64,000 nucleotides of DNA from Psychroserpens ponticola (GTDB lineage Bacteria > Bacteroidota > Bacteroidia > Flavobacteriales > Flavobacteriaceae). The position numbers and the translations under genes were made by a program. Shown piece by piece: positions 7,720-45,705 of the stretch; positions within the stretch are counted from its first letter, which is position 1; each line of letters begins with the position of its first letter. The notes beneath the pieces were generated by a model. It made no database searches, was not told the origin of the DNA, and worked only from the letters and a program-made list of their open reading frames with translations. Location: assembly GCF_023556315.2 (NCBI RefSeq), contig NZ_CP116221.1, positions 3,114,001 through 3,178,000 of the forward strand, in the 5' to 3' direction.

Positions 7720-7758
7720 TATTCAATCTGTTTTTTTTAGCCCTTTTAATAAATTTTC

Positions 7759-10055: not shown

Positions 10056-10124
10056 TTTGATGTTCTTTATTAGGTTTTGATATTTAATTGGTATTGATTA
10101 GACAAGGTCTAACATTGGTCTCTG

Positions 10125-22500: not shown

Positions 22501-22564
22501 ATAAAGCTTGTATAAAAACTTTTATATATTTACCTCAACTAGTTTAAAATTAATTAATCTTATT

Positions 22565-25081: not shown

Positions 25082-28000
25082 ATGAAAAAAATTTACACAC
25101 TTTTACTCGCCTTAACGATGACAAGTTTTGGCTTTGCACAAACAAGTCCTGGCGATATCGCATTTACAGCATTTAATGCTGATGGAACTGACGAATTTGC
25201 TTTTGTTACTTTAGTTGACATTCCAGCTAACACAACTATTTGGTTTACAGACAATGAATGGGATGGAGATTCATTTAATAACATAAATGAAGGGGAAATT
25301 GAATGGTCACATACGAGTGCAGTTCTAGCTGGAACAGTAATCTTAATTGAAAACACTAATGGTAGTTCTCCCACTGTAAATATAGGAGCTGTATCTGGTG
25401 GTGGAGCAAATTTAGGAGCTAGTAATGAAGAATTATTCGCTTTATTAAGTGAACCTAGTGCTTCTGTAATGCCTACACCTGGTTTTTTAGCAGGTATTGC
25501 AAACGACATCAGTGGCTCTGTACTTACAGGAACTGGTCTTACTGAAGGTACAAATTTTCTGAACTTTGATGATGATGGAGACGGTTATGAGTATACTGGA
25601 TCTATCAGTAGTGAATCTGCTTTTGCTGATTATTTACCTCTTATTATGGATACAGATAATTGGCAAATCGAATCTTCAAATGGTAACCTCATATTACCTA
25701 TCTCAACGGTAGCGTTTACTATAACAGGAAGTGCTACTGACACCGAAGTCCTTTTTACTGGAACTTCAATTTCAATTTCAGAAGGTGATGGTATTTTTGA
25801 ATTAGAGTTTACAATACTAAATGAAGATGCTGCAGCAACAAGTTTTGATGTGGTACTTACAAGTGGAGACAATGCAGATATTGATGGCTACACTACAGAA
25901 ACAGTAACTTTTCCTGGAGGCTCAGCCGCAGATCAAGTTGTTGAATTAACAATTACTGATGATGCTGTTTTTGAAGCTGATGAAACTTTAACCTTCGAAA
26001 TTCAAAATGTGTCAGGAGGAAGCAACGCAGGTGTTGGTACAAATGGGTCTTTCGATTTAACAATAACAAACAATGATGCACCTCCTACAATTGCATTACC
26101 TTATTCTGAAGATTTCACTAATTGTGGCACTGCATTATGGACTCCATATAGTGAAGCAGCTGACAATTCTTGGACTTGCGCAGCTGGAGCATATACAATG
26201 AACGGTTTTCCAAATCCAGATGATATTGATTGGTTGATTTCTAGTTTTAGTATTGATTTTGACTTGACTAGCAATGAAAACATTGCAGTAACTACTTCAG
26301 AACAACATGGAGATGCTATCAATGATGCTGGTGAGTTTGAATTATTCTATTCCACAAATTATGCTGGATATGGTGATCCGACTGGAGCAACATGGATTCC
26401 TTTAACTTTTAACCCAAACAATACATCAACAGGTTTTGGTACATCTCCCGATTCTGTGACTGTAGTAGATGCTACCAGCATTACTGGAACTGCATACCTA
26501 GCGTTTTATTATGATGCAGCTGCAGGTTCAGGACCTGAAGAATGGAACATTACAGATATTTTAATACAAGAAGGTGCTTTACCAACTAGTGTTGAGCTCG
26601 TTAGTACTTCTGCATCTGTTGCAGAAGACTCTAGCACTTATGACCTAGAATTTTCAATTACTAACGAAGATGCAACTAATGCAACAATATTTGATCTTGT
26701 ATTAACTGTAGGTGATGCTGCAGATATTGACTCATACACGACGCAAGCAGTTACATTTCCTGCTGGAACTTCAGCAAACCAAACCGTAACAATTACTATT
26801 ACTGATGATGCTTTACAAGAAGCTGACGAATTATTAACTTTTGAAATACAAAACGTTACAGGTGGAAATACTGCTGCAGTTGGAACAAATTCTTCTTTTG
26901 ATTTAACTATTCTAGAGAATGATGAGCCTGTTATAGAAGGGACGTTGTATGATGCAGATTTTTCTAATGATGGTGATGGATTCGCAGCGCATACATCAAG
27001 TTCTCCTCCAGCTGCTGGACCAGCTTCTGCAGGACCTTTTGGAACTGCACCAAACGCATGGTCTTTATCTTATGATACAACACCAGGAACAGATGGGTCA
27101 GATAATACTTTTGAAGTTGTTTTGGGAGAATTACAAAGTGATGATTGGGGAGGTCAAGGTATTTTTACCAGTCAATTAATTGATGTTTCCGGAGTTAACA
27201 CAGTTGATATCTCTGCTACTGGTGTGAATTCTGGTGCTAATGAAAATAATTTCAACTATTTCTACATAATAGATGGTGGTTCTAGAGTAGATGCTGCAAA
27301 CATTTCATCAAGCAATGGTGACCCTGTCAATTATTCTATCATTGGTTTAGATGTATCTGGCGCAAGTACTTTAGAAGTTGGTTTTGAATTCTTTGAAAAT
27401 GGTGGTGGAGATGGTTATGATGTTTCTGAGTTTCTTGTGATTGAAGGTGCAACAAATACTTCAGTTCAATTAACATCAACTTCAGCTTCAGTTTTTGAAG
27501 ATGTAGGAACTATTGACCTTACTTTTGAAGTTCTAAATGAGGATGCTGTAAATGACACAACCTTTGATGTGGTTTTAACTGTTGGTGATGCTGCCGATGT
27601 TAATTCTTATACAACGCAAACAATAACGTTCCCAGCAGGACCAGGCCCAAACCAAGGTCTTACAATAACTATTACTGATGATATGATTGAAGAATCTACT
27701 GAGGTTCTTACTTTTGAAATTCAAAACGTGAGTGGAGGTGATGCTGCAGTTGTTGGAGCAAACAATTCATTTGAATTAACTATTCAAGATAATGACGGCA
27801 GTGTAGTATTACCTGGCGATATCGTGATTTCTGAAATCATGTATAACTCAACTAGTTTTGATGATGAATGGATTGAAATTTATAATGCATCAGGTGCTGA
27901 TATTACTTTAGATGGTGATTGGCAGTTGAGTTACGGCTCTAATACTTTTGATTTTACAGGAACTTTGATTACTGCAGGTGACTATTTAACAATTGCACTT

Positions 28001-29947: not shown

Positions 29948-30109
29948 ATGAAAACAAATATAAAACAGGATAACATCACAAGAAAGGAAGCCCTTACTAA
30001 AATGGGCAAATATGCGGCCTTAACAGCTATTGGGACGTTCATTATTTTAAACCCTAAACAAGCGCAAGCTTCTTCTCCGCCAGATCCAGGTGGAAATCCT
30101 TTTGAATAA
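29948..30109 (+). CDS. 53-residue peptide with RK-type signal sequence, copy 2 (PPDPGGNPFE tail)
   Basis: The 53-residue ORF begins 18 bases after paralogue 5, and the 18-base spacer is identical to that before copy 1. The N-terminus reads MKTNIKQDNITRKEALTKMGK. It is followed by the invariant hydrophobic segment, the NPKQAQA signal peptidase site and the tail SSPPDPGGNPFE. Its 3' half shares a 60-base identical stretch with copy 3 (42593), while its 5' part resembles copy 1, so the copies have exchanged DNA. A terminator with the CGCACTA core follows. It is probably co-transcribed with the cargo gene. The mature product would be a 12-residue secreted peptide if processed at AQA-S. Confidence 0.82.
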   Translation: MKTNIKQDNITRKEALTKMGKYAALTAIGTFIILNPKQAQASSPPDPGGNPFE

Positions 30110-30425: not shown

Positions 30426-33400
30426 ATGAAACACATTTACACACTTTTACTTGCCCTAATGATGACTGCTTTAGGGTTTGGGCAGACTACAGTAACCTAT
30501 GATTTTTCTGACGGAGGCGCAGTCACAGGACTAAATGAAGCATCACCTGGTATCACTGTTGATTCTGATCCAAATATAGGTTTTGGTAGTTTCAAAAACT
30601 CTGGTACTTCAAACCCTGCACTCAATAGTGGCCAATTACGTTTATATCAAAACGCCACCAAAGGAGGTTCAATTATTATTTACGCGAACAGTGGTGTAAC
30701 CATAACTAATATTATTGTTAATGCGTCATCGCTAATTGGAGATGCTGGTTATATTGTTGATGGAGGATCGCAAGTTAACTTATCAGGAGGAAGTACTTAT
30801 ACTATTAGCGGAATAAGCTCTACTTCACAAGTAGAATTTTTTCAAAGAGAAAGTGGAAGCGGAAACAGAATATATGTAGATACTTTTGATGTTACTTATA
30901 CTTCTGGTGGTGGTGGTTGTACAGCTCCTACAACCCAAGCTTCGGTTTATAACACAACGTCTATAGGAACCACAAGTGCTACATTAAATTGGACTGATGG
31001 TGATGGTGATGAAGTATTAGTACTTGTTAAAGCAGGCTCGGCTGTTGATGCAGACCCTACAAATGGAACAGGATACACAGGAAATACAGTTTTCACATCT
31101 GGTGATCAAATTGGCACAGGTAATTATGTGGTACAATCTGGTTCGGCTACAAGTTCGGTTAGTATTACTGGTCTAACTGCTGCTACCACTTATCATGTTG
31201 CTGTATATGAATATAATACGACTGATACATGTTATGAGTTAACGGAATTAACAGGTAACTTTACCACGGGTTGTTCAACGCCTTCAGATGTGACTGCATT
31301 TACGGCAACTGCAGGTAATACTGAAGTTGATTTAAGTTGGACGAATGGGAGTTGTTTTGATGAGATTTTAGTCGTAGCCAAAGCAACTTCTGCCGTAACA
31401 GTAACACCAACTGGTGATGGCACTGCTTACACTGCAAATGCTGCTTTTGGTTCTGGTACCGATTTAGGGACTAGTGAATATGCTGTTTATAAAGGTTCTG
31501 GTACTTCGGTAACCATTACTGGTTTAACAAATGGTACAACCTATCATTTTGAAGCTTTTGCTCGCAAAGTAACCACATGGAGTTCGGGTGTAACTGATTC
31601 TGCTGCACCAATTGATCAATTAGGCGCTGGAGACATTGCCTTTACAGCCTTTAATGCAGATGGAGGTGATGAATTTTCATTTGTGGCTTTAGCAGATATT
31701 CCAGCCAACACTACGATTTGGTTTACAGATAATGAATGGGATGGCAATTCATTTAATAACATAAATGAAGGCGAGATTGAATGGTCTCATACAAGTACAG
31801 TTACAGCTGGTTCAGTTATTATTATTGAAGATACTAGTGGAGGCTCTCCTACTGTAAATATAGGAAGCGTATCTGGTGGTAGTGTTAATTTAGGTGCTAG
31901 TGATGAACAATTATTCGCCTTATTAAGTACGCCTTCTGCTTCAACAATGGCAACACCTGGATTTTTAGCTGGAATATCTAATGATCTTACTGGCTCAACG
32001 TTAACAGGAACTGGACTTACTGATGGTACAGATTTTCTTGACTTTGATGACGATGGTGATGGTTATGAATATACGGGTTCTAGATCTAGTGAATCTGCTT
32101 TTGCTGATTATTTGCCTCTTATTATGAATACAACTAATTGGCAGATTGAAACTTCAAATGGTAACAATATATTACCGATTTCAACTACTGTTTTCACACT
32201 AGCTTCAGGCTGTACTGCTCCAACGACTCAAGCTTCTGCTTATAACACTACATCAATTGGTTCTACAAGTGCAACATTAAACTGGACTTCAGGAAATGGT
32301 GATGAAGTTATGGTTGTTGTTAAAGAAAGTTCTGCAGTTGACATGGATCCTACTGATGGAACAGCTTACACAGGAAATACAGTTTTTACATCAGGTGACC
32401 AAATTGGTACAGGTAATTATGTTGTACAATCTGGTTCTGCTACAAGTTCTGTTAGTATTACTGGCTTAACTGCTGCTACTACTTATCATGTAGCTGTTTA
32501 CGAATACAACACAACTGGTACATGTTATGAATTAACGGAATTAACTGGTAACTTTACTACAGATTGCCCAACACCTTCTGATGTGACTACATTTACAGCA
32601 ACATCAGGTGATACTACTATTGATTTAAGTTGGACTAATGGGAGTTGTTTTGATGACATTTTAGTCGTTGCAAAAGCAACTTCAGCTGTAACGGTTACAC
32701 CAACAGGTGATGGCACTGCATACACTGCAAATACCGTTTTTGGTTCTGGTACCGATTTAGGAACTAACGAATATGCTGTTTATAAAGGTACAGGAACATC
32801 TGTTACAGTAACGGGTTTAACAAATGGCACAACATATCACTTTACAGCTTTTGCTCGTAAAACGACAACTTGGAGTGCTGGTGTAACTGATTCTGCAACG
32901 CCAAACACGGTTGAAGAAGCGGTTGCTGGTGACTTAATTATCACTGAAGTTTCTGGTGATGGTTCTGCTACTGGAAATGATAATGGATATATGGAAATTT
33001 ACAATAGAAGTAATAAAATTATCAACCTAGATAATATTGAAGCTAGGTATTTCAATTCAAATCCTGGTAGCTCTACACAACAAGTTACTCTTAGCGGCAC
33101 ACTAAGTCCTGGTAGCTTTGTTATAGTGACTCAAAATGCAGGCAACTATACTACTGAATATAGTGATACGGCTGATGCAACAGGAAGTGATTTCTACTTT
33201 AATGGCGGAGATGATGGTTGTGATGTATACCACACTACAAATGGTGTGATCGATCAATTTAACGATAATGGAAGTGGACAAAGCCCATGGAATTGGAGTG
33301 ACAGCTTTACTTACTACAGAAACAGTACTGGTAGTGGTGCAATTGAAGACAACTGGACGCAAGATGGCACAGACAACCCAAGATCAAAAACTAATTTGTT

Positions 33401-35039
33401 CTTCTGGACAGGAGCTTCTGATAGTTCTTGGACTAATACAAGTAACTGGGATGAAGCTGCGGCGCCATCAAGTACAACCGATGTTGTAATTACAGATCAA
33501 ACTAACGAACCTTCAATTACTACTTCTGTTGAAGTTTCTAATATCACAATTGAAACGAGTACAGACATTATTGTAGAAAAAACCGGTAATCTTGAAGTAT
33601 CTGGAAACTTAAACAACTCTGGTAACCTTAGTTTAGAGTCTGATTCAAATGAATACTCAAGTTTAATTATTGATGGTACTTCTAATGGAACCATCAACTA
33701 TGAACGTCACGTAAATATTAATGGTTCTGGAACCACTGGAAGTAATGATTTAATATCTGCTCCATTAACTGGACAACAATTTGACGATTTTGCAACTGCT
33801 AATTCTAACATTTTAAGTAATGGTGCAGGTACATTATTCTTATTTGGCCCTTTTGATAAAACTTCTGGAGAATATCTAACTTATGCAGACACTGAGACTG
33901 CTACATTAGATGCTGGAGTTGGATATAGAGCTGCATCAGATGACAATGGAACATTTACATTTACTGGAACCGCAAACAATGGAACCATCACTAATGATAT
34001 AATAAACTCTGGTCCTTCAGAACCTGCAGAATCAGAATGGAACCTAGTTGGTAACCCATACCCTTCTTATATAAATGTTCAAGATTTTCTTAACCATGAA
34101 GTTAGTTCTGGCATTTCAAACCTTGATTTATTTGATGCTGGTACAGCTGCAATTTACGGTTATGATGGTAATGCTTTAAATGGCTGGACGGTTTATAACT
34201 TAGCTAACACGACTGCTTCTACAGTAATTGCTCCTGGACAAGGATTCTTTGTAAGTGCTGATGCAACTTATGCACCACTATACGATTTAGAATTCTCACC
34301 AACAATAAGATCTACAGGAACTACTGACGATTTCATTGCAGGTCGTAGTGGAGGACTAACCCATTTTACTCTTCAGGCATCTTCAGCTGCAGATTCATAT
34401 AGTACTGAGTTTTATTTTAATCCAATAGCTACTCGTGCATTTGATTTAGGACATGACGCCGAAATATTTAGCATTAATCTGCCGTTTGTTTTATACTCAC
34501 ATCTTGTTGAAGAAGATGAAGGAGCCCACTTAACATTACAAGCTCTAAACACAACCGATCTTATGGATGTAACCATCCCAATCGGGATTAATGCAAATCA
34601 AGGTGTACAAGTAACCTTTACAATGTCACTAAATGAATTGCCAGAAAATCATTTTGTTTATTTTATAGACACAGTAGAAAATACAACAACGCTATTAAAT
34701 GACTTAGATTATGTATTAACCCCTTCAACTGCTTTATCTGGAATTGGACGTTTCTATATTAGAGTTTCAGAAGTCGCTTTATCTACAATTGAGAATAGCT
34801 TTAATGAATTAACTATTTTCGCTTTAAACGAATCAAATGAAATCGTAGTTAATGGACAATTACAAAAAAATACAATATTAAACCTATATGACATTCAAGG
34901 TAGAAAAGTGTTATCAACACAACTTGATAATACTAGCCTTGAAAACCGTATTGATATTTCTTCTTTAAGCGGAGGTGTATATGTTGTAAATGTTCAAAAT
35001 AACGAACAGCAAAAATCACAAAAAGTGATTATAAAATAA
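30426..35039 (+). CDS. T9SS type A sorting domain-containing secreted protein with FN3-like and lamin-tail domains (paralogue 6)
   Basis: The 1537-residue protein has a signal peptide ending ALGFGQ. A first beta domain runs to about 160. An FN3-like pair follows (SATLNWTDGDGDEVLVLVK, TEVDLSWTNGSCFDEILVVAK). Then comes the GDIAFTAFNADG domain at about 402-590, also the N-domain of paralogue 5. The same FN3-like pair returns from about 592, so residues about 165-390 and 595-820 are an internal duplication. A lamin-tail domain begins near 834 (AGDLIITEVSGDGSATGNDNGYMEIYN). The shared module starts near 993 in a diverged form, and the type A sorting tail follows (LYDIQGRKVLS, GGVYVVNVQNNEQQKSQ). 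It ends in its own terminator, with no peptide gene. Confidence 0.92.
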   Translation: MKHIYTLLLALMMTALGFGQTTVTYDFSDGGAVTGLNEASPGITVDSDPNIGFGSFKNSGTSNPALNSGQLRLYQNATKGGSIIIYANSGVTITNIIVNASSLIGDAGYIVDGGSQVNLSGGSTYTISGISSTSQVEFFQRESGSGNRIYVDTFDVTYTSGGGGCTAPTTQASVYNTTSIGTTSATLNWTDGDGDEVLVLVKAGSAVDADPTNGTGYTGNTVFTSGDQIGTGNYVVQSGSATSSVSITGLTAATTYHVAVYEYNTTDTCYELTELTGNFTTGCSTPSDVTAFTATAGNTEVDLSWTNGSCFDEILVVAKATSAVTVTPTGDGTAYTANAAFGSGTDLGTSEYAVYKGSGTSVTITGLTNGTTYHFEAFARKVTTWSSGVTDSAAPIDQLGAGDIAFTAFNADGGDEFSFVALADIPANTTIWFTDNEWDGNSFNNINEGEIEWSHTSTVTAGSVIIIEDTSGGSPTVNIGSVSGGSVNLGASDEQLFALLSTPSASTMATPGFLAGISNDLTGSTLTGTGLTDGTDFLDFDDDGDGYEYTGSRSSESAFADYLPLIMNTTNWQIETSNGNNILPISTTVFTLASGCTAPTTQASAYNTTSIGSTSATLNWTSGNGDEVMVVVKESSAVDMDPTDGTAYTGNTVFTSGDQIGTGNYVVQSGSATSSVSITGLTAATTYHVAVYEYNTTGTCYELTELTGNFTTDCPTPSDVTTFTATSGDTTIDLSWTNGSCFDDILVVAKATSAVTVTPTGDGTAYTANTVFGSGTDLGTNEYAVYKGTGTSVTVTGLTNGTTYHFTAFARKTTTWSAGVTDSATPNTVEEAVAGDLIITEVSGDGSATGNDNGYMEIYNRSNKIINLDNIEARYFNSNPGSSTQQVTLSGTLSPGSFVIVTQNAGNYTTEYSDTADATGSDFYFNGGDDGCDVYHTTNGVIDQFNDNGSGQSPWNWSDSFTYYRNSTGSGAIEDNWTQDGTDNPRSKTNLFFWTGASDSSWTNTSNWDEAAAPSSTTDVVITDQTNEPSITTSVEVSNITIETSTDIIVEKTGNLEVSGNLNNSGNLSLESDSNEYSSLIIDGTSNGTINYERHVNINGSGTTGSNDLISAPLTGQQFDDFATANSNILSNGAGTLFLFGPFDKTSGEYLTYADTETATLDAGVGYRAASDDNGTFTFTGTANNGTITNDIINSGPSEPAESEWNLVGNPYPSYINVQDFLNHEVSSGISNLDLFDAGTAAIYGYDGNALNGWTVYNLANTTASTVIAPGQGFFVSADATYAPLYDLEFSPTIRSTGTTDDFIAGRSGGLTHFTLQASSAADSYSTEFYFNPIATRAFDLGHDAEIFSINLPFVLYSHLVEEDEGAHLTLQALNTTDLMDVTIPIGINANQGVQVTFTMSLNELPENHFVYFIDTVENTTTLLNDLDYVLTPSTALSGIGRFYIRVSEVALSTIENSFNELTIFALNESNEIVVNGQLQKNTILNLYDIQGRKVLSTQLDNTSLENRIDISSLSGGVYVVNVQNNEQQKSQKVIIK

Positions 35040-35340: not shown

Positions 35341-38300
35341 ATGAAAAAATTTACATTGTTACTACTTGCTATGCTTGCCTTTTGTTGGCAATCTCAAGCA
35401 CAATTCACGTTTCCAACAGAAGGACCACTTAATGTGGTCAGTGGAACACCTGAAGAAATAGGTTTAAATACAGTCGGTAATACAGCTGGTGTAACTGCTG
35501 CTGAATATGACTCTTTTGAACTAACTGTAACCTGGACAGCTGGAGGTGGAGGTCCTTGGTCTAGTGAAGCTGAAGCTTTAATTACAACATCTGCAGGTTC
35601 TGTCGATGTTGATGGGCCATCTTCTGGAGGTGCTAATGATGGTACTACAACTACACTAACGTTCATTGGTAATTTTCCAGCCAATTATAACCCTAGTGTC
35701 AATGGCTTATTAGGAGTTGCTTTTGACACCTCTTATGGTGGGTCTGATATGGATTTAACAGATATTGTAATGGTTCTCTATGAGGCTCCTACATGTGATG
35801 TGGTTTCTGGTATTACTATTGATGCTTTTACAGATACAACAGCAGATGTTAGCTGGACAGCTAGTATCACTGGAGAAACAGCATGGGAAATTGCTTTTCA
35901 AGGAAGTGGAGCTGGCGCTCCTGCAGCTGCTGGTGATCCAGCTACAAGTGTATATAATAAAACGGGGCTAACAGAATCTACAACATATGATGTGTATGTT
36001 AGAGCAGATTGTACTGGTGGTGATTATGGCGACTGGGTTGGCCCAGTTAGCTTTACTACTCCAGCTTCTCCTGTTTCAATAACGTGTCCTGGACCTGATT
36101 TGAATGAGACATATTGCTATTCTAATAATGACGAAACTGAATTTAAATATGTAAGTTCAGATGGTTCAAATTTAAGAGTAACATTTAATGCAGGAGATAC
36201 TGAAGACACTTATGACGAATTAATTATTTTAGACTCAGATGGTGTAACAGAATTATATAATGGTTATGGAGCATCTGGAGACTTAACTGGTGTTTCTGCT
36301 ACTTCTTCTGGAGATAGTATTACTGTAAAAGTAAGTTCTGATGGCTCAACTACTGAATGTTCAACAGGTGCTGATTGGGATTGGGATATTGAATGTTTAG
36401 CATGTACTCCATCTATAGTAGATACAATAACAGTAATTGAAGATTGTGGATCAGGTACATTTGATGTTGAAGTTACATTTTCAAGTCTTGGTGATGCGTT
36501 ATTTATTGTAGGAACAAGTGAACCATACCCTTTTGAATCTGTCGTACCTGGTACTTTTACTTATACATTATCAGGTTATATTTCAGGAACTGATGCTGAT
36601 CTTTCTATAAATCATTCAAGTCCTGTTTGTGATTACGATTTAGCAACGCAAACTTATAACTGTCCACCAGATAATGATTTATGTGCAGACGCTACAGCTA
36701 TTGCTTGTAATGATACACTTACAGGTCAATCTACTATTAGTGCAACTGGAGCAAGTGCTACATCTTGTGATGGATCAATTGGTAATGATGTATGGTACCA
36801 ATATACTGGTGATGATAGTGATGTTACTATAACTGTAAACGCAACTGTAGAAGAAGCACAAATTGGTGTTTTTACAAGTACTGATGGCGCCTGTTCAGGA
36901 ATCACTTTAGGAAGTTGTTCTGATTCATCTGCTGGTAGTGGTGGTAACCCAGTTTCGGTTACATTTGCTGCTGATGTAGGTACAGAATACTTTATACAAG
37001 TTGGAAATTGGATTAATGGAGACCCTGGATTAGAGTTTGAAATTTCAGCAACATGTATTCCTTACCCAACTACAGCTCCTGATTGTCCAGCTACATATAC
37101 TGCGACTCCAGATGCTACTTGTGGTTCTTTAGAAACAACATTAGCTTGGGATGCTTCAACTCCTGTTGTAGCCGATGGATATTACTTAACTGTTGGTACA
37201 ACAATGGGTGGAAATGATATCATTGATAATGTAGATCTTGGCAACGTATTGACGACTACAGTTTCGTCTCAAACCGTAAATACACAATATTACTATACAA
37301 TATCTCCTTATAATGATTTTGGAACTGCAGTATGTGCTGAACAAACATATACTACTATTGCTGCTGGATGTTATTGTACATCTGAGCCAACTTCTAATGA
37401 TAATAATGGAATCTCAAATGTAACAATTGATGCAACATCGTTCCCAACTGGTGACGTAACTTATTTTGATCATTCTGGAACTCCAGTAGATTTTAGCCAA
37501 GGACTTACAGCTCCTGTTTCAATTACATTTGAAACTGGGTATGCGTATGGAACAAATATTTGGATTGATTTTAATGATGATTATATTTTAGATCCTTCTG
37601 AATTAGTATTCTCTGGAGAATCTCTTTCGACTAATCCTACTACTTTTGATGCAAGTTTCCCAATGCCAGTATCAGCGACATTAGGAACTCACAAAATGAG
37701 AATAGGTACTGCTTATAGTGGACAAGATACACCTAACGCATGCTATAATGGTTCTTATGGTGTAACATTAGATTTTGATGTTAATATCGTAGCTCCATCT
37801 TGTACAGCAATTGCAATAAATAGTTCAACTATAGTTGAAAATTGTGGAGCAGGTACTTTTGATGTTGTTATTGATGTAGCGTCAATTGGTGCTGCTACTT
37901 TTAAAGATGATGCCGTAAATGGTTCTGAAGCTATTGTTGCAGGTATTAACACATATACTTACAACCTTGGCGAAGTTCCAGACATTACAATTTTACATTC
38001 TGATATAGCTTGTAATTTGGCTTTAGGTACTTTCCAATATGATGATTGCCCAACACTTGTTGATTGTGCTGGTGGAACACCAGTAAATACAACATTTTGT
38101 TACACAAATAATGATGAAACTATGTTCGCATATCAAAGTTCAGATGCTTCAAGTCTTAAAGTAACATTTAATGCAGGAGATACTGAAAACAATTATGATG
38201 AACTAATTATTTTAGATTCTGACGGTGTTACAGAATTATATAACGGTTATGGTGCAGCTGGTGATTTAACAGGTGTTACTGCTAATTCTACAGGTGATAT

Positions 38301-41300
38301 AATTTACGTAAAAGTATCGTCTGATGGTTCTTCAACATCATGTTCTTTTGGTGATGACTGGGATTGGGATGTAGAATGCTTGGCATGTACTCCTGGAGTA
38401 GTAGATACTACAGTAATTAGTGACACTTGTGGTGGCACTGACGAATTTACTGTTACTGTTAATTTAACAACAGTAAATGACGCTACTGGAGTTTCTGACG
38501 GAACAAACACCTATGCATTTACAGGATCTACAGCAGTTGCAGGACCTTATCCTGTTGGAACAACAGAAACATTAACATTATTACATACAGATGTTTCTTG
38601 TGACTCTTCTTTAGGTGATTTCACTTATGTATGTCCTCCAGCAAACGATGCTTGTGCTAACGCAATAGCGCTTACAGTTAATCCTGATTTTGCTTGTGGT
38701 ACAGTTACGTCTGGAGATCTTTATGGTGCAACCGCAGATGGTGAAAGTGAAGCAACTTGTGCTGGAGCTGAAAATGATGATGTATGGTATACGTTTGTAG
38801 CTACTTCAACAGCACACAGAATAGAACTATCAAATATTTCTGGAACTCCTACTGACATGTACCATTCTCTATGGGAAGGTGCTTGTGGTACGTTAACAAA
38901 CTTAGTATGTAGTGATGGAAACACTAGTAATCCTACAGGATTAACTATTGGTAACACATATACTGTAAGAGTAAATTCTTATAGTGGTAATGCTGGTGCA
39001 ACAACTACGTTTGATATTTGTATTGGGACACCACCACCACCACCTGCTAATGATGAATGTATTGATGCTATTGCACTTACAGTAAATCCTGATTATGCTT
39101 GTGGTACGGTAACTGCTGGTACAATTCAAAGCGCAACTGCTTCTGGAGAAGATGAAGCAACTTGTTCTGGAGCAGAAACTGACGATGTATGGTATACGTT
39201 TGTAGCTACTGCAACAACACACAGAATAGAAATACAAAATGTTACGCCTTATACTGACATGTATCATTCTTTATGGGAAGGTGCTTGTGGTACATTAACT
39301 AATGTAGATTGTACTGATTCAAACACTAGTAATCCTACAGGATTAACTATTGGTAATACATATACGCTAAGAGTAAATTCTTATGGAACTTCTTCTAGCT
39401 CATCAACTTTTGATATTTGTATTAGTACAGCTCCTCCAGCTCCTGCTAATGATGAATGCGCAGATGCTATTGCACTTACCGTAAATCCTGATTATGATTG
39501 TGGCACTGTAACTGCTGGTTCAATTGCTGGCGCTACTGCATCTGGAGAAAGTGAGGCAACTTGTAGTGGTACTGAAAATGATGATGTATGGTATACATTC
39601 GTGGCTACACATACTGAACACAGAGTAGAATTATCAAATGTAACTGGAACACCTACAGATTTATATCATTCTGTATGGGAAGGCGCTTGTGGTACATTAA
39701 CTAACTTAACATGTAGTGATTCAGATACAAGTACAACATCTGGATTAACTATTGGTAATACATATACTGTAAGAGTAAATTCTTATAGTTCTAATTCTGG
39801 TGCATTTACTTCTTTTGATATTTGCATTGGTTCACAACCACCACCACCAGCAAATGACACTTGTGCTGGCGCAGTGGTAGTTACTCCTGGAGCATATGGA
39901 TCATGTACTACAACAAGTTTTGATAACGAATTTGCAACGTATAGTGGTGCATTAGGATCTTGTGAATCTTTTGACGTTGGTACAGAACAAGATGTATGGT
40001 TTACATTCTCAACTGATGCTGTTTCTACTTCTATAAATGTTGAAGTAACTGATGGTACTCCTGGGAATCTTGATATGAGTGTATATGATGCTTGTGCTGG
40101 AACAGAAGTAGCTTGTGCAGCAACTTTAACTGCAGGGTTAAATACACTTACAGGTCTGACACCTAGTACAACGTACTGGTTACAAGTTTGGACAGAAAGC
40201 ACTACTTCTGGAGCATATGATTTATGTTTCTCTTATCCTCCACTATGTACACCTGTAGATGTTACAAGTTCAACGGTTGTAGAAAACTGTGGTGCTCAAC
40301 AATTCTCTATAGAGATTGTGGTTGCTGATGAAGGATCTGCTGGATCTGTATTTGATGATGGAACTGCAACAACTCCTGTTGTTTCTGGAACTACAACTTT
40401 AGGACCTTATAATTTTGGTGATAACATTACTGTAAATATTACAGCTGTTGATTCAAACTGTGATGGTTCATTAGGAACATTTAATAGTACTTGTCCTCCA
40501 CCAAATGATGATTTTGCAAATGCAATTGCATTAAATTGTGGTGATACAGTATTTGGTGATACTACTACTGCAACTTTAGATGAGGACGACGCTCCTGATG
40601 CAACAGGCTTTAATGCAGATACAGATTCGCCGAATATGTGGTATTCATTCTATGGAACTGGAGAAACTTTAGACTTAGATACTTGTCTTGATGGTACTGA
40701 CTTTGATACAGAAATTCTTGTATTCACTGGAACTTCTGGCAACTTGACTTTAGAAGCTTCTGGTTATGATGACTGTAATGGTACAAATTCAGATTATCTT
40801 GCACAGGCTAGTTTAGTAACATCTCCTGGCATCCAATATTGGATTTCTGTTGAAGGTTATAACGTAGGCAGTATAGGTGCTTTCGAAATGTCTGTAACGT
40901 GTTCAGGTACAGCTGCATTTGTTTATAATAATGGATGGGTAGATGGTAGTAATCCTATTGGAACAACAACCACTAATGACATTGTAATTGCATCTGGTGA
41001 TGTTAATCTTACAGCGAATACAGGTTGTAATACATTTACAGTTCTACCAGGTGCTGGTGTAACTGTTGATGCTGGTGTTACGCTTACTCCAACTGCAGGA
41101 TTACTATTAGACTCTAACTCTACGAGTTACTCTAGTTTAATTCTTGATGGTACTGTAACTGGAACTATGACTTACGAACGTCATGTGAATATTAATGCTA
41201 GTTCTGGTACAACAACTGGTAGTAACGATTTAGTTTCTGCTCCTTTAACAGGACAGCCTTTTAATACATTTGCCGCTGCAAACCCTAATATTCTAACCAA

Positions 41301-42516
41301 TGCTGGTGGTACGTTGTATTTATTTGGCCCTTTTGAAAAAGTAACTGGTCAATATGTTACTTGGGCTGATACTGAAACATCTACGCTTGATCCTGGTGTT
41401 GGATACAGAGCTGGTTCTGTTGATAATGATACTTTTACATTTACTGGTACAGCTAATAATGGCGTTGTGACTAACGACCTTGTTAACGCTGGATCTAATA
41501 ATGCTATATGGAACTTAGTTGGTAATCCTTATCCTTCTTATTTAAATGTTTGGGATTTCCTTGCTCATGATTTAGGAGATGGCACAACTAACATTCAACT
41601 TTTTGATACTGGTACGGAAGCTATATATGGTTATGATGGTAGTCATGGTAATGGTTGGACTATTTACAACTATGCTACTACTTTACCGTCTACTGTTATT
41701 GCTCCTGGTCAAGGATTCATGGTCAGTGCTAATGCTGCTCAAACTGCTGGTTATGATCTAGAATTCTCTCCTGATATGAGAAGAACGGGTTCTAGTGATG
41801 ATTTCATTGTAGGTCGTAATGCACAATTGACATATGTGAAATTAGATTTAAGTACTGCTAATAAGTCTTATGGTACTGATATCTACTTTAACAACAATGC
41901 AAGTTCTGGATTTGATGCAGGATATGATGCTGCTATTTGGGGTGAAACTGCTCCTGATTTCGCAATTTATTCTCACTTAATTGAAGAAAACAATGGTAAA
42001 GCAATGGCGTTACAAGCTGTTGATCATACTGATCTATCAGACATTAGTATTCCATTAGGTGTTAATGCAAACCAAGATGAAGAATTAAGGTTTAGCATTT
42101 CTGAAATAACTTTACCAGCTTCTGTTAATGTATATCTTGAAGATAGAGTGAAAAACACAATTACGTTATTAAATAACGCGGATTATGTGATTAACCCTTC
42201 AGCTGCATTATCTGGAACGGGTCGATTCTTCTTAAGAACTTCTCAAGGTGCTTTAACAACTATAGACAACTCTATTTCTAAATTAGACATCTATACGTTA
42301 AAAGCTTCTGATGAACTTGTTATTAGTGGAGAACTACTAAGTGATAATACAATGCTAAATGTATTCGATATTCAAGGTCGATTAGTATTAAGTACTAAAC
42401 TTGATGATACCATTTTAGAAAATCGTATAAATGTATCTAGTATTAACTCAGGTGTGTACATTGTTACTGTTCAAAATAACAGTCAAGAGGAAACTAAAAA
42501 GGTAATTATAGACTAA
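35341..42516 (+). CDS. Giant T9SS type A sorting domain-containing protein with CUB-like, GEVED and tandem repeats (paralogue 7)
   Basis: At 2391 residues this is the largest protein in the window. After the signal peptide (LAFCWQSQAQ) come an N-domain like that of paralogue 2, an FN3 repeat and a CUB-like domain from about 248 (YDELIILDSDGVTELYNGYG). A PPC-like stretch, an FN3-like stretch and a GEVED domain at about 680-815 (WIDFNDDYILDPSELVFSGE) follow, then a second CUB-like copy near 908. Three tandem repeats of 133-135 residues begin at codons 1101, 1236 and 1369 (DDVWYTFVAT, HSxWEGACGTLTN, GLTIGNTYTxRVNSY), with a diverged fourth at 1504. A PPC-like domain, the shared module and a type A tail like that of paralogue 1 close the protein. 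Cysteine pairs are frequent. It is likely an adhesin or surface protein. No terminator follows, so transcription probably enters the peptide and kinase genes. Confidence 0.92.
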   Translation: MKKFTLLLLAMLAFCWQSQAQFTFPTEGPLNVVSGTPEEIGLNTVGNTAGVTAAEYDSFELTVTWTAGGGGPWSSEAEALITTSAGSVDVDGPSSGGANDGTTTTLTFIGNFPANYNPSVNGLLGVAFDTSYGGSDMDLTDIVMVLYEAPTCDVVSGITIDAFTDTTADVSWTASITGETAWEIAFQGSGAGAPAAAGDPATSVYNKTGLTESTTYDVYVRADCTGGDYGDWVGPVSFTTPASPVSITCPGPDLNETYCYSNNDETEFKYVSSDGSNLRVTFNAGDTEDTYDELIILDSDGVTELYNGYGASGDLTGVSATSSGDSITVKVSSDGSTTECSTGADWDWDIECLACTPSIVDTITVIEDCGSGTFDVEVTFSSLGDALFIVGTSEPYPFESVVPGTFTYTLSGYISGTDADLSINHSSPVCDYDLATQTYNCPPDNDLCADATAIACNDTLTGQSTISATGASATSCDGSIGNDVWYQYTGDDSDVTITVNATVEEAQIGVFTSTDGACSGITLGSCSDSSAGSGGNPVSVTFAADVGTEYFIQVGNWINGDPGLEFEISATCIPYPTTAPDCPATYTATPDATCGSLETTLAWDASTPVVADGYYLTVGTTMGGNDIIDNVDLGNVLTTTVSSQTVNTQYYYTISPYNDFGTAVCAEQTYTTIAAGCYCTSEPTSNDNNGISNVTIDATSFPTGDVTYFDHSGTPVDFSQGLTAPVSITFETGYAYGTNIWIDFNDDYILDPSELVFSGESLSTNPTTFDASFPMPVSATLGTHKMRIGTAYSGQDTPNACYNGSYGVTLDFDVNIVAPSCTAIAINSSTIVENCGAGTFDVVIDVASIGAATFKDDAVNGSEAIVAGINTYTYNLGEVPDITILHSDIACNLALGTFQYDDCPTLVDCAGGTPVNTTFCYTNNDETMFAYQSSDASSLKVTFNAGDTENNYDELIILDSDGVTELYNGYGAAGDLTGVTANSTGDIIYVKVSSDGSSTSCSFGDDWDWDVECLACTPGVVDTTVISDTCGGTDEFTVTVNLTTVNDATGVSDGTNTYAFTGSTAVAGPYPVGTTETLTLLHTDVSCDSSLGDFTYVCPPANDACANAIALTVNPDFACGTVTSGDLYGATADGESEATCAGAENDDVWYTFVATSTAHRIELSNISGTPTDMYHSLWEGACGTLTNLVCSDGNTSNPTGLTIGNTYTVRVNSYSGNAGATTTFDICIGTPPPPPANDECIDAIALTVNPDYACGTVTAGTIQSATASGEDEATCSGAETDDVWYTFVATATTHRIEIQNVTPYTDMYHSLWEGACGTLTNVDCTDSNTSNPTGLTIGNTYTLRVNSYGTSSSSSTFDICISTAPPAPANDECADAIALTVNPDYDCGTVTAGSIAGATASGESEATCSGTENDDVWYTFVATHTEHRVELSNVTGTPTDLYHSVWEGACGTLTNLTCSDSDTSTTSGLTIGNTYTVRVNSYSSNSGAFTSFDICIGSQPPPPANDTCAGAVVVTPGAYGSCTTTSFDNEFATYSGALGSCESFDVGTEQDVWFTFSTDAVSTSINVEVTDGTPGNLDMSVYDACAGTEVACAATLTAGLNTLTGLTPSTTYWLQVWTESTTSGAYDLCFSYPPLCTPVDVTSSTVVENCGAQQFSIEIVVADEGSAGSVFDDGTATTPVVSGTTTLGPYNFGDNITVNITAVDSNCDGSLGTFNSTCPPPNDDFANAIALNCGDTVFGDTTTATLDEDDAPDATGFNADTDSPNMWYSFYGTGETLDLDTCLDGTDFDTEILVFTGTSGNLTLEASGYDDCNGTNSDYLAQASLVTSPGIQYWISVEGYNVGSIGAFEMSVTCSGTAAFVYNNGWVDGSNPIGTTTTNDIVIASGDVNLTANTGCNTFTVLPGAGVTVDAGVTLTPTAGLLLDSNSTSYSSLILDGTVTGTMTYERHVNINASSGTTTGSNDLVSAPLTGQPFNTFAAANPNILTNAGGTLYLFGPFEKVTGQYVTWADTETSTLDPGVGYRAGSVDNDTFTFTGTANNGVVTNDLVNAGSNNAIWNLVGNPYPSYLNVWDFLAHDLGDGTTNIQLFDTGTEAIYGYDGSHGNGWTIYNYATTLPSTVIAPGQGFMVSANAAQTAGYDLEFSPDMRRTGSSDDFIVGRNAQLTYVKLDLSTANKSYGTDIYFNNNASSGFDAGYDAAIWGETAPDFAIYSHLIEENNGKAMALQAVDHTDLSDISIPLGVNANQDEELRFSISEITLPASVNVYLEDRVKNTITLLNNADYVINPSAALSGTGRFFLRTSQGALTTIDNSISKLDIYTLKASDELVISGELLSDNTMLNVFDIQGRLVLSTKLDDTILENRINVSSINSGVYIVTVQNNSQEETKKVIID
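38641..39849 (+). repeat. Three tandem coding repeats of 405, 399 and 405 bases
   Basis: Repeats begin at 38641, 39046 and 39445, each opening with codons for ANDxC and TVNPDxxCGTVT. DNA similarity between units is high, with shared phrases such as GATGTATGGTATACGTT, which shows recent tandem amplification inside paralogue 7. A weaker fourth unit starts at 39850. The units look like PPC-type beta domains with conserved cysteines. Confidence 0.88.
41119..42270 (+). repeat. Near-identical cargo-module DNA repeat, copy 4
   Basis: This copy follows copies 1-3 almost base for base from TCTACGAGTTACTCTAG to about 42010. It then diverges moderately (VDHTDLSDISIPLG) before joining a tail that is nearly identical to that of paralogue 1. 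Confidence 0.88.
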
Positions 42517-42592: not shown

Positions 42593-42754
42593 ATGAAAAA
42601 TATTAATTCAGAAAATCAGATCACTCGTAAGGAGGCAATCAAAAAAATGAGCAAATATGCTGCTTTAACAGCTATTGGGACGTTCATTATTTTAAACCCT
42701 AAACAAGCGCAAGCTTCTTCTCCACCAGATCCAGGAGGAAATCCTTTCGAATAA
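42593..42754 (+). CDS. 53-residue peptide with RK-type signal sequence, copy 3 (candidate modified-peptide precursor)
   Basis: I chose the ATG at 42593 because it gives exactly 53 residues, the length of both other copies. An in-frame TTG at 42569 would add eight unmatched residues. The N-terminus (MKNINSENQITRKEAIKKMSK) differs from the other copies. The rest, from YAALTAIG through NPKQAQA to SSPPDPGGNPFE, is identical. Seventeen bases downstream starts a PqqD/HPr-kinase-like gene, followed by a nucleotidyltransferase gene. This peptide is therefore the member physically joined to possible modifying enzymes, and the leader-plus-invariant-core pattern suits a RiPP precursor. Alternatively it is an ordinary small exported protein. 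I know of no described family. Confidence 0.82.
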   Translation: MKNINSENQITRKEAIKKMSKYAALTAIGTFIILNPKQAQASSPPDPGGNPFE

Positions 42755-42771
42755 TATTATTTTTTTTTGAT

Positions 42772-43920
42772 TTGAAAACAAATCTATCACCACAGTTAAT
42801 TCAGGATATTAATGAAAATGCTGTTTTACTTTGGTTTGAAAAATCAAACAGATATCTTGTTACTTCAAAAATAAATAGTGAATTTATAAAACTATATATG
42901 AATCCCGATGAAAGTCGGGATTCATTTGTTGTTAACCTTCATCAAAATTTTGATTTTGATGAAAATACAGCAAACACCATCTATAATGATATAACCATTT
43001 TCCTAAAAGATGTCAATATAGATGAAATAACTAATGCTACTTCTAATATCATATCTACAATTGCTCCAACTCAATATATAAAACAATCTTATAAGTTTAA
43101 TGATAAAATTGTTAGTATAAGATATGAGTCTGAAGTAATAAAAAGCTTGGTTCACCCTCAAATTTCTCATCATTCAATAGAAAACACGACAGAATTTGAT
43201 GTTCTATTTGATATTTTCAAAACTGATGATAATTTACATCTATTGGAGAATGGCAAACATGTAGGGAGTTTTAAAACACAATCTTTTCATTTTTTACAAG
43301 GCAAATTTGCTTTACAACTCACAAATACAATTCATAATACTGAAATTGGTAATTGGATAGCAACATTTCATGCTTCTACAATTTCTAATGGAAAAGAATC
43401 TATTATGATTGTAGGAGATTCAGGTAACGGTAAAAGTACACTATCCGTTTTATTAATGGCTAATGGCTTTGATATCCTCTGTGATGATTTCACGCCGCTT
43501 TATGAAGACAACCTCAATCTGTTTCGTTATCCCGCTGCTACATCTATTAAAAAAGGAGCTTTTAAAGCCTTAAAACCTTATCTAAAAGATATAGATGAAC
43601 TAAAAACCCATACTAGTGGGCCAAAAAAAGTAAACATTAAATATGTACCACCTCTAGTTAATTATGAGAGTCAAACTTCAAGCTTTCCGTGTACAAAAAT
43701 TGTATATGTTAAATACAATGCTTTAGAAAAAGATAGCATTACAAAAGTGTCTTCAGATAAAATTCTAGAAACTTTAATACCAGATTCTTGGATTTCACCA
43801 AAAAAAACTCATGCTTTAAAGTTTATAAATTGGTTTAAGAAAATTGATTGTTATCAATTAAATTACAATAATAATAACTTTGCCATTTCAAAATTTAAAG
43901 ACCTCTTCAAAGAATCTTAA
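42772..43920 (+). CDS. HPr-kinase-like protein with PqqD-like N-terminal domain
   Basis: The 382-residue soluble protein starts at a TTG; the next in-frame ATG, at 42898, would remove half of the first domain. Residues about 10-85 (ENAVLLWFEKSNRYLVTSK, then NTIYNDITIFLKDVN) have the strand/helix order of PqqD-like RiPP recognition elements. From about 190 the protein resembles the HPr kinase P-loop fold. It has a Walker A at about G215-T223 (GDSGNGKST) and the Walker B-like DILCDDFTPL, as in HprK and the kinases of some lasso-peptide clusters that phosphorylate a precursor. It lies between the peptide gene (17 bases) and the nucleotidyltransferase gene (36 bases). Peptide phosphorylation is inferred, not shown. 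Confidence 0.72.
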   Translation: MKTNLSPQLIQDINENAVLLWFEKSNRYLVTSKINSEFIKLYMNPDESRDSFVVNLHQNFDFDENTANTIYNDITIFLKDVNIDEITNATSNIISTIAPTQYIKQSYKFNDKIVSIRYESEVIKSLVHPQISHHSIENTTEFDVLFDIFKTDDNLHLLENGKHVGSFKTQSFHFLQGKFALQLTNTIHNTEIGNWIATFHASTISNGKESIMIVGDSGNGKSTLSVLLMANGFDILCDDFTPLYEDNLNLFRYPAATSIKKGAFKALKPYLKDIDELKTHTSGPKKVNIKYVPPLVNYESQTSSFPCTKIVYVKYNALEKDSITKVSSDKILETLIPDSWISPKKTHALKFINWFKKIDCYQLNYNNNNFAISKFKDLFKES

Positions 43921-43956
43921 ATGTTTTACTTACTTTTAAATTCTTAAAAAGAGCCT

Positions 43957-44994
43957 TTGTCTTTCACTAAAAATTCATATAAAAATACGTTACAACTCAT
44001 TGCTGATATTTTGAGTTATGAAAACTCAATTGAAACTTTAAAACAAGACATGATTTCCAACACAATAAATTGGGAACAATTTGTTTATATAGCAAGTGAT
44101 TATTTAGTTTTAACCACATGTTATTGTAGACTTAAAGATAAGAATTTACTACAATACCTTCCTGAAGAACTAGTAATGTATCTAGATGAAATAACAACTA
44201 TCAATAGAAATAGGAATAACACATTACTAAATGAAATTAAAAGTATTGCTGATATTTTAAACACAAATAAGATTGATTTTGTATTTCTAAAAGGAAGCGC
44301 GTTTCTAATAAAAAATTTATATCAAGACGTGGGAGAAAGAATGCTTGGTGACATTGACATTCTGGTTGATGAGGATCAAATAGATCATACTTATCAATTA
44401 TTATTAAAAAATGATTATACTGGAACTGATCAAGGTATAAGTGCAAAATATTTTGACAATAAGCATTTGCCGAGATTACAATCCAAATTGAAATTAGCTG
44501 CAGTTGAAGTACATCGAAAAGTTGTCATAAAGTCATACAATGGAGTTTTGGATGTAAAAGATATTTTAGAAAAAAAAGAATCAGTTCAAAACATCTATGT
44601 TCCTTCTAAAAAACATTTGGTTTATCATACCATTTTAAATTTTCAAGCAAATGATTCTGGCTATATTTATAGCAGAATCAGTTATAAATCTATTTATGAT
44701 TTACTTATTTTAAAAAAAGCATATAATTTCAGTTTTGACAAAACTTTCAATCCTTCATATTTTAAAAACTACTTCTCTATTGCAAAAATTTTCTTTAATG
44801 ACTTCTCTAATTTTAAGTCTAAAACATTAATAAATTATATTTTTTTACAAAAATTAAAGCATCCATTTCTAAGGAAGTTTATCGATTCATTTTTAAGTAA
44901 ATTTCAATTTATAAAGACTGTTATAACAACAAGAATTGGTTTCTTTATTAAGAACAGAAACTATAGAAGAGATATAATAAATAAATATAAATGA
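43957..44994 (+). CDS. NTP_transf_5-like nucleotidyltransferase family protein
   Basis: The 345-residue protein starts at a TTG just after an in-frame stop at 43945-43947, so it cannot begin much further upstream. Residues about 105-140 carry FVFLKGSAFLIKNLYQD and RMLGDIDILVDEDQID. That is the LKG...R.m.DiDiLV signature of the uncharacterised nucleotidyltransferase family PF14907, with DID as the metal-binding pair. A helical C-terminus is rich in Phe and Lys. PF14907 proteins accompany HPr-kinase-like enzymes in some lasso-peptide clusters. Here it is the last gene of the peptide-kinase unit. It may nucleotidylate the peptide or a phosphorylated form, which is inference. Confidence 0.75.
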   Translation: MSFTKNSYKNTLQLIADILSYENSIETLKQDMISNTINWEQFVYIASDYLVLTTCYCRLKDKNLLQYLPEELVMYLDEITTINRNRNNTLLNEIKSIADILNTNKIDFVFLKGSAFLIKNLYQDVGERMLGDIDILVDEDQIDHTYQLLLKNDYTGTDQGISAKYFDNKHLPRLQSKLKLAAVEVHRKVVIKSYNGVLDVKDILEKKESVQNIYVPSKKHLVYHTILNFQANDSGYIYSRISYKSIYDLLILKKAYNFSFDKTFNPSYFKNYFSIAKIFFNDFSNFKSKTLINYIFLQKLKHPFLRKFIDSFLSKFQFIKTVITTRIGFFIKNRNYRRDIINKYK

Positions 44995-45102: not shown

Positions 45103-45705
45103 ATGAGAAATTTAGTTTTATTTTTAATGTTGGTGTCATTAATTAGTTTTAATGGCAATTCACAAACTACTTCAGATACTGAATATGATACTACTTCAGA
45201 ATCTGATTTTATAAATGCTCCTTGGAAGCTAAGTGTTGGTGTAAATTCTGTTGGAAGTTTAGGAACAAGACAACCTCTTGAACGTTTAGGAGATTTTCAA
45301 TTTAAAAACCCCTTAGCACTAGCCATTGAACATAAATGGTCAAAGTTTTTTGCTCTTGAACAAGATTTAACTTTGAATGGATATGAGGCTAAAAGCCAAA
45401 TAGACAATGGTGTATTAACTAAAGACTATACATACATTTCAACTAACACATATGTGAAATACTATTTCTCAGATGCTCTATTTGCTATAAATTGGTTAGA
45501 TCTCTATACTGGTGTTGGATTTGGACTGTTTTCTGTTGATGAACTTAACTCATCTGGTAACGTAGTCTGTGGTGGAACAATATGGATTTCAGATAAGATT
45601 GGTGTTAGACTTCAAGGTGTTGGTAAATTTGCAATTAATGCTAAAGACAGACAGTTTGACAACAACCACTTTCAATATATGTTACAAGCAGTTTTTAAAT
45701 TGTAA
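45103..45705 (+). CDS. Outer-membrane beta-barrel protein, function unknown
   Basis: The 200-residue protein has a signal peptide (MRNLVLFLMLVSLISFNGNSQ) and a short acidic/threonine linker. About eight amphipathic strands follow (WKLSVGVNSVGSLG, LALAIEHKWSKFFALEQDLTL, TNTYVKYYFSD, WLDLYTGVGFGLFSV, KIGVRLQGVGKFAI), ending in Phe-Lys-Leu after an aromatic-rich last strand. This suits a small OmpW/OmpA-type barrel as is common in Bacteroidota. It has no T9SS tail or C-terminal peptidoglycan-binding domain. It stands alone on the plus strand, convergent with the MtfA-like gene and only three bases from it. The specific role is unknown. Confidence 0.75.
   Translation: MRNLVLFLMLVSLISFNGNSQTTSDTEYDTTSESDFINAPWKLSVGVNSVGSLGTRQPLERLGDFQFKNPLALAIEHKWSKFFALEQDLTLNGYEAKSQIDNGVLTKDYTYISTNTYVKYYFSDALFAINWLDLYTGVGFGLFSVDELNSSGNVVCGGTIWISDKIGVRLQGVGKFAINAKDRQFDNNHFQYMLQAVFKL

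Follow-up and report, generated by a model that had tools for sequence, protein, structure and literature searches.

A candidate RiPP-like peptide maturation system associated with one class of type IX-secreted surface proteins in Psychroserpens ponticola and other Bacteroidota

The window analysed here is a stretch of 64,000 nucleotides from the flavobacterium Psychroserpens ponticola (NCBI RefSeq assembly GCF_023556315.2, contig NZ_CP116221.1, positions 3,114,001 to 3,178,000 of the forward strand), the genome of which is 4.03 Mb in size and forms a single contig. It contains a compact unit consisting of a short gene for a putative precursor peptide, a gene for an HprK-like kinase with a PqqD-like N-terminus and a gene for a nucleotidyltransferase of family PF14907 (NTP_transf_5) (Table 1). 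The genome has four copies of the peptide gene, three of them inside the window, and each of the four lies immediately 3' of a large gene encoding a cargo protein of the type IX secretion system (T9SS), at distances of 18, 18 and 76 bases in the window. The kinase and nucleotidyltransferase genes follow the third window copy only; the fourth copy, beyond the window, likewise has T9SS cargo immediately to its 5' side and encodes the same tail as the window copies. An earlier reading made from the letters alone (the sequence-only reading) had proposed that the peptide, kinase and nucleotidyltransferase genes form one unit, that two further peptide copies exist and that the module goes with T9SS cargo; all of this was confirmed, including the coordinates and the 17- and 36-base spacings within the unit. 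Given their regular joint occurrence in relatives, the peptide, the two enzymes and the surface-protein class probably constitute one system. We regard it as reasonably probable that this is a maturation system resembling those of ribosomally synthesized and post-translationally modified peptides (RiPPs), tied to one T9SS surface-protein class, in which a linear precursor would be phosphorylated and exported.

Joint occurrence of peptide, enzymes and surface proteins

Peptide relatives were taken from 35 genome stretches, 23 of which also contain the kinase, and from 80 kinase loci. Among 299 genomes of the family Flavobacteriaceae the kinase was found in 29 and the peptide, using a profile of the four P. 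ponticola copies at E <= 0.01, in 33; both were present in 28 (Fisher p 3.6e-33, uncorrected for kinship, and such values overstate independence since the genomes are related). In the 249 more complete genomes both occur in 24, the kinase alone in none and the peptide alone in two. The possibility, raised with the original proposal, that the enzymes regularly occur without the peptide did not materialize in this family, as only one of the 29 kinase genomes lacks a detected peptide (G048, 82% complete, with the kinase at a contig start). A shared neighbourhood alone does not suffice to explain the association, because peptide and kinase lie far apart in at least two genomes, G123 (a single contig) and G149; the genes of G055 and G067 fall on separate contigs, the peptide gene being at or close to the end of its contig, so that these two genomes do not inform on distance. 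The kinase loci analysed are the best 80 of 205 relatives and lean towards the nearer kin of the P. ponticola kinase. The nucleotidyltransferase is present in 79 of them and a peptide gene nearby in 74, and for five of the remaining six a peptide is encoded elsewhere in the genome (one of these, L111, is accompanied by a second kinase locus with an adjoining peptide, L133), leaving L119 with no detected peptide. The order is peptide, nucleotidyltransferase, kinase in L054, L132 and L133, rather than kinase first. Beyond the family the distribution is thinly sampled, by 335 genomes of the phylum, with seven peptide-profile matches of which two are the starts of hydrolase-like proteins and not the peptide, and by the 80 loci, of which L128, L131, L134 and L142 come from records labelled Prolixibacteraceae, Mariniphaga or Bacteroidetes.

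The cargo follows the same pattern. For 79 of the 82 peptide open reading frames (ORFs) of at least 40 residues in the 80 loci, the nearest upstream ORF of more than 150 residues on the same strand encodes cargo with a shared C-terminal region; 4 to 1687 bases separate the two genes, and five loci have two peptides for one such cargo gene. The other three peptide ORFs are those of L089 and L131 (no such upstream ORF) and the degenerate L093, and L131 has a cargo fragment truncated at the contig end. A profile of the cargo C-terminal region, with the sorting domain excluded, matched 124 of the 299 genomes at E <= 1e-20, and the best scores formed two sets: 34 genomes scored above about 157 bits, whereas the other 90 (a generic form) reached at most 129.5 bits. 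The high-scoring set comprises the 29 kinase genomes without exception, G275 and G283, which have the cargo subtype and the peptide without the kinase, and G066, G121 and G292. Because peptide-adjacent cargo served to build this profile, the informative part is the rarity of high-scoring cargo elsewhere. The dividing line was set only once the gap (157 against 129.5 bits) had been seen, and absences of cargo are softer than those of peptide or kinase because about seven candidates were scored per genome. Peptide, kinase, nucleotidyltransferase and cargo subtype co-occur, the unlinked cases included.

In the window, positions 11617-42516 form an array of seven T9SS cargo genes, all seven with a type A sorting domain (TIGR04183 or PF18962) and three of them followed by a peptide gene. 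Over the 345-residue C-terminal region, the cargo proteins ahead of copies 2 and 1 are 95% and 75% identical, respectively, to that ahead of copy 3, which suggests recent duplication or conversion. For the cargo with a Por secretion tail and no peptide gene 3' of it, a match to the C-terminal region was not listed among the seven candidates scored in this genome. The small protein encoded beyond the nucleotidyltransferase is probably accessory; a relative lies beside the module in 53 of the 80 related loci and is absent from most of the remoter ones. The commonest downstream neighbours, an M90 peptidase, YqeY and FtsZ, look like a shared chromosomal position, and the 639-residue FtsZ of the window (47497-49416) has a long glutamate-rich tail, as judged by eye, beyond the FtsZ domains, which stop at about residue 326. 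On the other side of the array lies a polysaccharide locus (464-11174, minus strand) encoding a flippase, glycosyltransferase, DegT aminotransferase, sugar nucleotidyltransferase and dehydratase. It was rejected as a part of the system, as five of its proteins were found in only 0 to 29 of the 80 loci, the highest count belonging to the RmlB-like protein, the most general of the five.

Table 1. Genes and domains of the system and neighbouring features. Positions are those of the window except for the fourth peptide copy.
Feature	Position	Strand	Description
Precursor peptide gene, copy 3	42593..42754	+	53 codons plus stop; leader ITRKEAIKKMSKYAALTAIGTFIILNPKQAQA, predicted mature tail SSPPDPGGNPFE, conserved Ser43
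Kinase gene	42772..43920	+	382 aa, TTG start, 17 bases 3' of peptide gene
Kinase domains			PqqD/RRE-like, about residues 1-82, then HprK-like kinase domain; invariant H200, K221, D238, D239
PF14907 (NTP_transf_5) nucleotidyltransferase gene	43957..44994	+	345 aa, TTG start, 36 bases 3' of kinase
PF14907 nucleotidyltransferase, residues			Invariant K112, G113, R128, D132, D134, E184, H186
Precursor peptide gene, copy 1	18253..18414	+	
Precursor peptide gene, copy 2	29948..30109	+	
Precursor peptide gene, fourth copy	G000:C1:2627069-2627227	minus	Beyond the window
T9SS type A cargo	14641..18234	+	Just 5' of peptide copy 1; choice-of-anchor J/MAM, fn3, Por secretion tail
T9SS type A cargo	25082..29929	+	Just 5' of peptide copy 2
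T9SS type A cargo	35341..42516	+	2391 aa, just 5' of peptide copy 3
T9SS cargo	11617..13869	+	Same C-terminal region, no peptide gene 3'
T9SS cargo	18664..22368	+	Same C-terminal region, no peptide gene 3'
T9SS cargo	22508..24787	+	Same C-terminal region, no peptide gene 3'
T9SS cargo	30426..35039	+	Por secretion tail, no peptide gene 3'
Small protein	45103..45705	+	Outer-membrane-barrel-like by eye, no Pfam match

The peptide family and its leader

The sequence-only reading had described a shared C-terminal stretch preceded by 20 variable residues and ending in an invariant 12-residue tail. Residues 21-53 are indeed identical among the three window copies, and free variation of the first 20 residues is refuted by seven positions (I10, T11, R12, K13, A15, K18 and M19) that are unchanged in all four copies of the genome. 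The tail is nearly constant per genome, with SSPPDPGGNPFE in all four P. ponticola copies, but differs between genera, so that its invariance is a within-genome feature. Similarly, G389 and G603 each contain six peptide copies with tails of the SPExPGxGF type, one of them with a short extension. Across genera it is the leader that forms the more conserved half in the family alignment, with the consensus [ST]RKEA[IL]KKMGKYAALTAxGTFxILNPxxAQA followed by one variable residue and then serine; a three-residue insert ahead of KYAAL, which Tenacibaculum and Polaribacter among others have, occurs in 28 of the 122 distinct leaders. The serine stands two residues past the AxA-type site in 105 of 107 distinct peptides and is never replaced by threonine, while the residue preceding it varies (mostly Q, S, T, A or N, with Gln at this first tail position in 44 of the 107). 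The tail contains Pro-Gly in 90 of these peptides, and F or W occurs within the final four residues in 91.

The leader is under purifying selection. For 71 leader cores, namely those that lack the three-residue insert and end at the serine, the mean proportion of synonymous differences (pS) was 0.72 and that of nonsynonymous differences (pN) 0.16, and pN reached or exceeded pS in none of 2485 pairs; between window copies 1 and 3, all differences in the tail are synonymous. In NCBIfam no model fell below E 0.01 for any of 46 aligned peptides, and the best weak matches include a hydrolase family and a Tat-target family. Some loci are less regular. Three peptide genes with differing tails occur in one locus of Lutibacter agarilyticus (L090), which also has a second, short kinase-like ORF at 13645-14013, and in a Mariniphaga metagenome-assembled genome (L134, 9433-9585) a short ORF 5' of the kinase starts like a leader (EITRKE) and then diverges; it is perhaps a decayed peptide copy, a full copy being present on another contig (L155).

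With an AxA-type site at its end, the leader looks similar to a signal of the twin-arginine translocation (Tat) pathway. A twin arginine is present in only one of the 122 distinct leaders and RK in 113, so that by the twin-arginine criterion the family falls outside the Tat signals, and the leader is conserved beyond what a signal requires. The relative L155, from the Mariniphaga-labelled genome, has TRR in its leader. The peptide profile also matches the N-termini of hydrolase-like proteins in two other genomes (L163 and L164), which hints that the leader may derive from a Tat signal. By eye these two proteins are dienelactone-hydrolase-like, and the sequence SRREFLDKASKYA in L163 reads as a Tat signal. 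Tests for TatC, the sortase PorU and the lasso leader peptidase PF13471 were made in 24 of the 28 genomes with peptide and kinase, those at least 90% complete. TatC is present in 24 of 24 and thus uninformative on plain Tat export; the PorU model matched in 23, the one without a match being G004, which has the system. From these sequence features the peptide would be exported, cleaved and modified, with the cut position placed by the AxA-type site.

The two enzymes

The HPr-kinase-like core named in the sequence-only reading is supported. The window kinase matches HprK_rel_A (TIGR04352, HprK-related kinase A) with 46 bits and E 3.6e-12, short of the curated cut-off of 200 bits, and all 74 aligned kinases match this model at E <= 0.01 (best 2.5e-23). 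In the PDB, the kinase profile picks out HPr kinases (best E 5.8e-5), and a Foldseek search with an AlphaFold2 model (pLDDT 93.9, pTM 0.90) returned phosphoenolpyruvate (PEP) carboxykinases and HPr kinases, with 44 matches at E <= 0.001; the two groups belong to the same fold superfamily. H200, K221, D238 and D239 are invariant across the 74 kinases and are of the same types as the H-K-D-D residues of the kinases of phosphorylated lasso peptides, where they are essential by mutation (PMC9266682). In G040 (L045, 8221-9367) the kinase is split over two overlapping frames, with the peptide and nucleotidyltransferase frames open, and may be broken or mis-sequenced.

The PqqD-like N-terminus fared less uniformly. 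Pfam calls no PqqD domain in the window protein and does so in only two of the 74 aligned kinases. On the other hand, a profile of kinase residues 1-95 aligned with a PqqD profile over 70 columns (hhalign E 4.2e-5, probability 69.8, score 29.0), compared with 17.3 for the best of 100 column shuffles and 14.2 and 15.7 for two other parts of the kinase. The PqqD profile comprised 19 Bacteroidota proteins picked by eye from 25 loci, five different-looking proteins being omitted and one locus having no candidate. Residues 9-81 of the model, after a short helix, run strand-strand-strand-helix-helix-helix, which is the order in PqqD and in RiPP recognition element (RRE) domains. The 50 Foldseek rows listed for the whole-kinase query include no PqqD chain, perhaps as expected since the domain is a small part of a large query. 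Profile-profile comparison and secondary-structure order thus support a predicted PqqD/RRE-like domain fused to the kinase; TIGR04352 kinases generally accompany a separate PqqD protein.

The assignment of the third gene to PF14907 stands, with 116.2 bits against a cut-off of 31.2, and K112, R128, D132, D134, E184 and H186 are among the residues invariant in 60 relatives. A PDB sequence search with this protein yielded nothing relevant, the lone match being a chance-level fumarase (E 0.068). In 199 genomes of the family, PF14907 gave 19 matches above its cut-off, of which 18 are the enzyme of this system and one (G058) is a different protein; G041 has one further match under the cut-off. The nucleotidyltransferase profile itself matched 28 genomes (G246 weakly), and the kinase occurs without a detected nucleotidyltransferase in G067 and in G151, where the contig stops shortly past the kinase. 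Antiphage defence was considered and set aside, neither enzyme having a match in PADLOC.

Proposed maturation, related systems and alternative explanations

In the maturation pathway that we propose, the PqqD/RRE-like domain of the kinase would bind the conserved leader in the cytosol, the HprK-type domain would phosphorylate the serine two residues past the AxA-type site and the PF14907 enzyme would put a sugar or nucleotide onto the serine phosphate. The signal-like leader would then carry the modified product over the inner membrane, and signal peptidase would cleave behind AxA; post-translational export would give time for the cytosolic modification. A short phosphopeptide or phosphoglycopeptide (12 residues in P. 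ponticola) may finally act with the neighbouring cargo at the cell surface, the most likely place of action. Presentation of the leader, serine phosphorylation and extension of the phosphate are expected by analogy with LppK and PsmK/PsmN, the enzymes of two known systems.

The closest known system is that of the linear polyphosphorylated peptides (LPPs) of Bacillota (Popov et al., 2026; PMC13381572), which has an HprK-like kinase and an adjoining nucleoside triphosphate (NTP) transferase. LppK adds phosphate to Ser3 of a linear core and works on neither Thr nor Tyr, the nucleotidyltransferase LppN was inactive in a heterologous host and the role of the peptides is called unknown by their discoverers (PMC13381572). 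As described there, the LPPs share with the present module a small precursor with a conserved N-terminal part and a variable end, the two enzyme types, independence of a macrolactam cyclase, a link to cell-surface loci and a target serine near a signal-peptidase-type cut (Ser3 in LPPs, the second residue past AxA here). They differ in that the RRE is a separate protein in LPP systems whereas an RRE-like domain is fused to the kinase here and PF05402 has no match in the P. ponticola genome at E <= 0.001, in the YxxPxVLxHQxIxFETxxS-type leader, the motif of which is missing from our leader alignment, and in the SpI-like peptidase and MsbA-like exporter of LPP clusters, neither of which was recognised beside the present genes; an export-signal-like leader, a Bacteroidota host and the pairing with T9SS cargo are further distinctions. 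The authors call LPPs Bacillota-restricted, and the string 'bacteroid' appears nowhere in their main text. By this comparison the Bacteroidota module may work like an LPP system, yet several of the features that define LPPs were not found. The sequence-only reading had called the unit putatively new, which in view of the 2026 report is not supported without qualification; what remains distinctive is leader recognition, peptidase, exporter and context. A literature search found no paper on the Bacteroidota system, with subscription journals largely outside its coverage and supplements unsearched.

Lasso peptides of the paeninodin and pseudomycoidin type also resemble the module, in that the kinase has a nucleotidyltransferase partner: PsmK phosphorylates a serine and PsmN then adds hexoses, addition by the Escherichia coli host after nucleotidylation being also possible (PMC9266682). 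The phosphorylated serine of these peptides is at the C-terminus, whereas the candidate serine here is at the start of the core. As the sequence-only reading had held, no lasso leader protease accompanies the system; PF13471 was found in 0 of the 24 genomes tested and in 2 of 14 control genomes, and on this ground a lasso peptide was excluded. No macrolactam cyclase was recognised among the scanned window genes, the cyclase family not having been searched genome-wide.

Several observations weigh against the proposed pathway. Five genomes have a peptide match and no kinase (G136, G275, G283 and G295, 82-92% complete, and the doubtful G152 with E 0.006), three have the cargo subtype with neither peptide nor kinase (G066, G121, which is a single contig, and G292), and 125 weaker kinase relatives stand outside the counts for the 80 loci. 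Two of the 107 peptides have no serine at the conserved place, one having Tyr and one ending earlier, and that count was made after four sequences without the leader motif had been removed (two L093 pieces, L141 and L069). The Foldseek TM-scores of the kinase model are modest, 0.33-0.44 for PEP carboxykinases by query length and at most 0.51 for HPr kinases by target length. The leader has no [Y/W]xxP motif of the kind described for RRE-bound leaders in PMC13381572. Finally, neither the recurring neighbours up to 6 kb downstream nor the scanned window genes (at least 120 residues, positions 464 to 55171, with four upstream genes having no Pfam match) include a recognisable exporter or signal-peptidase gene; the eight commonest downstream groups, three of them named by Pfam through the window and the rest by eye, include no SpI-like peptidase or MsbA-like exporter.

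Alternative roles for the same genes can be envisaged. The matured peptide might be a secreted signal or antagonist, with the surface proteins co-regulated or serving as its receptors or immunity proteins; a short, defined tail that is near-identical per genome and differs between genera is pheromone-like, as are multiple copies per genome (four here, six each in G389 and G603). We consider this unlikely, since pairing with one large surface-protein class in 79 of 82 cases better fits a structural role, cargo lies ahead of most copies in multi-copy genomes and no exporter was recognised among the recurring downstream neighbours. It is distinctly unlikely that the enzymes modify the cargo or a surface glycan, the peptide being a membrane-inserted helper or chaperone and no substrate. 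The very short mature part, the stronger conservation of the leader than of the tail and the strictness of the cargo subtype, which matches that of the peptide and extends to all 29 kinase genomes, would suit such a role, but the near-invariant serine (105 of 107) and the PqqD-like domain suit a peptide-modifying enzyme, and exported cargo would be unlikely to meet a cytosolic kinase. It is scarcely credible that the peptide ORF is an artefact or the remnant of a signal peptide; its great shortness and the visible degeneration of the relative L093 would fit, but purifying selection and co-occurrence with the enzymes argue to the contrary.

A further alternative places the matured peptide as an acceptor or linker that PorU would join to the cargo C-terminus, replacing or extending the aminoacyl linking sugar of other species. 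To our knowledge, the anchoring of T9SS cargo elsewhere mostly involves no peptide of this kind, and this, together with the generic form of the cargo region as the only form in 90 of 124 genomes, makes the idea improbable. In addition, Gln at the tail start (44 of 107 peptides) could cyclise and block the amine, and G004 has the system but no PorU match. In its favour, PorU is found in 23 of 24 genomes, the cargo has a type A sorting domain, and a free N-terminus with a sugar-phosphate on serine would be chemically analogous to the aminoacyl sugars. The T9SS linkers described in other species are N-aminoacyl sugars, with a seryl group in Porphyromonas gingivalis, a glycyl group in Tannerella forsythia (PMC7468200) and an alanyl group in Prevotella intermedia (PMC11969387), for which reason the linker role keeps a small probability. 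We would give only a slim chance to the fuller version, a glyco-phosphopeptide acting as the covalent anchor of adhesin-like cargo, with leader, kinase, nucleotidyltransferase and cargo C-terminus co-evolving; if it were true, a ribosomal peptide would serve as an acceptor in protein sorting.

If the proposed maturation of a linear, phosphorylated peptide is correct, linear phosphorylated RiPPs would extend from Bacillota to Bacteroidota, in a form that unites leader-binding domain and kinase in a single protein and has an export-signal-like leader. One class of T9SS surface proteins provides a clear genetic partner for this kind of peptide, and because of this partner the role becomes testable by genetics and mass spectrometry. 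The system may also be relevant to the anchoring or tuning of surface proteins in Flavobacteriaceae.

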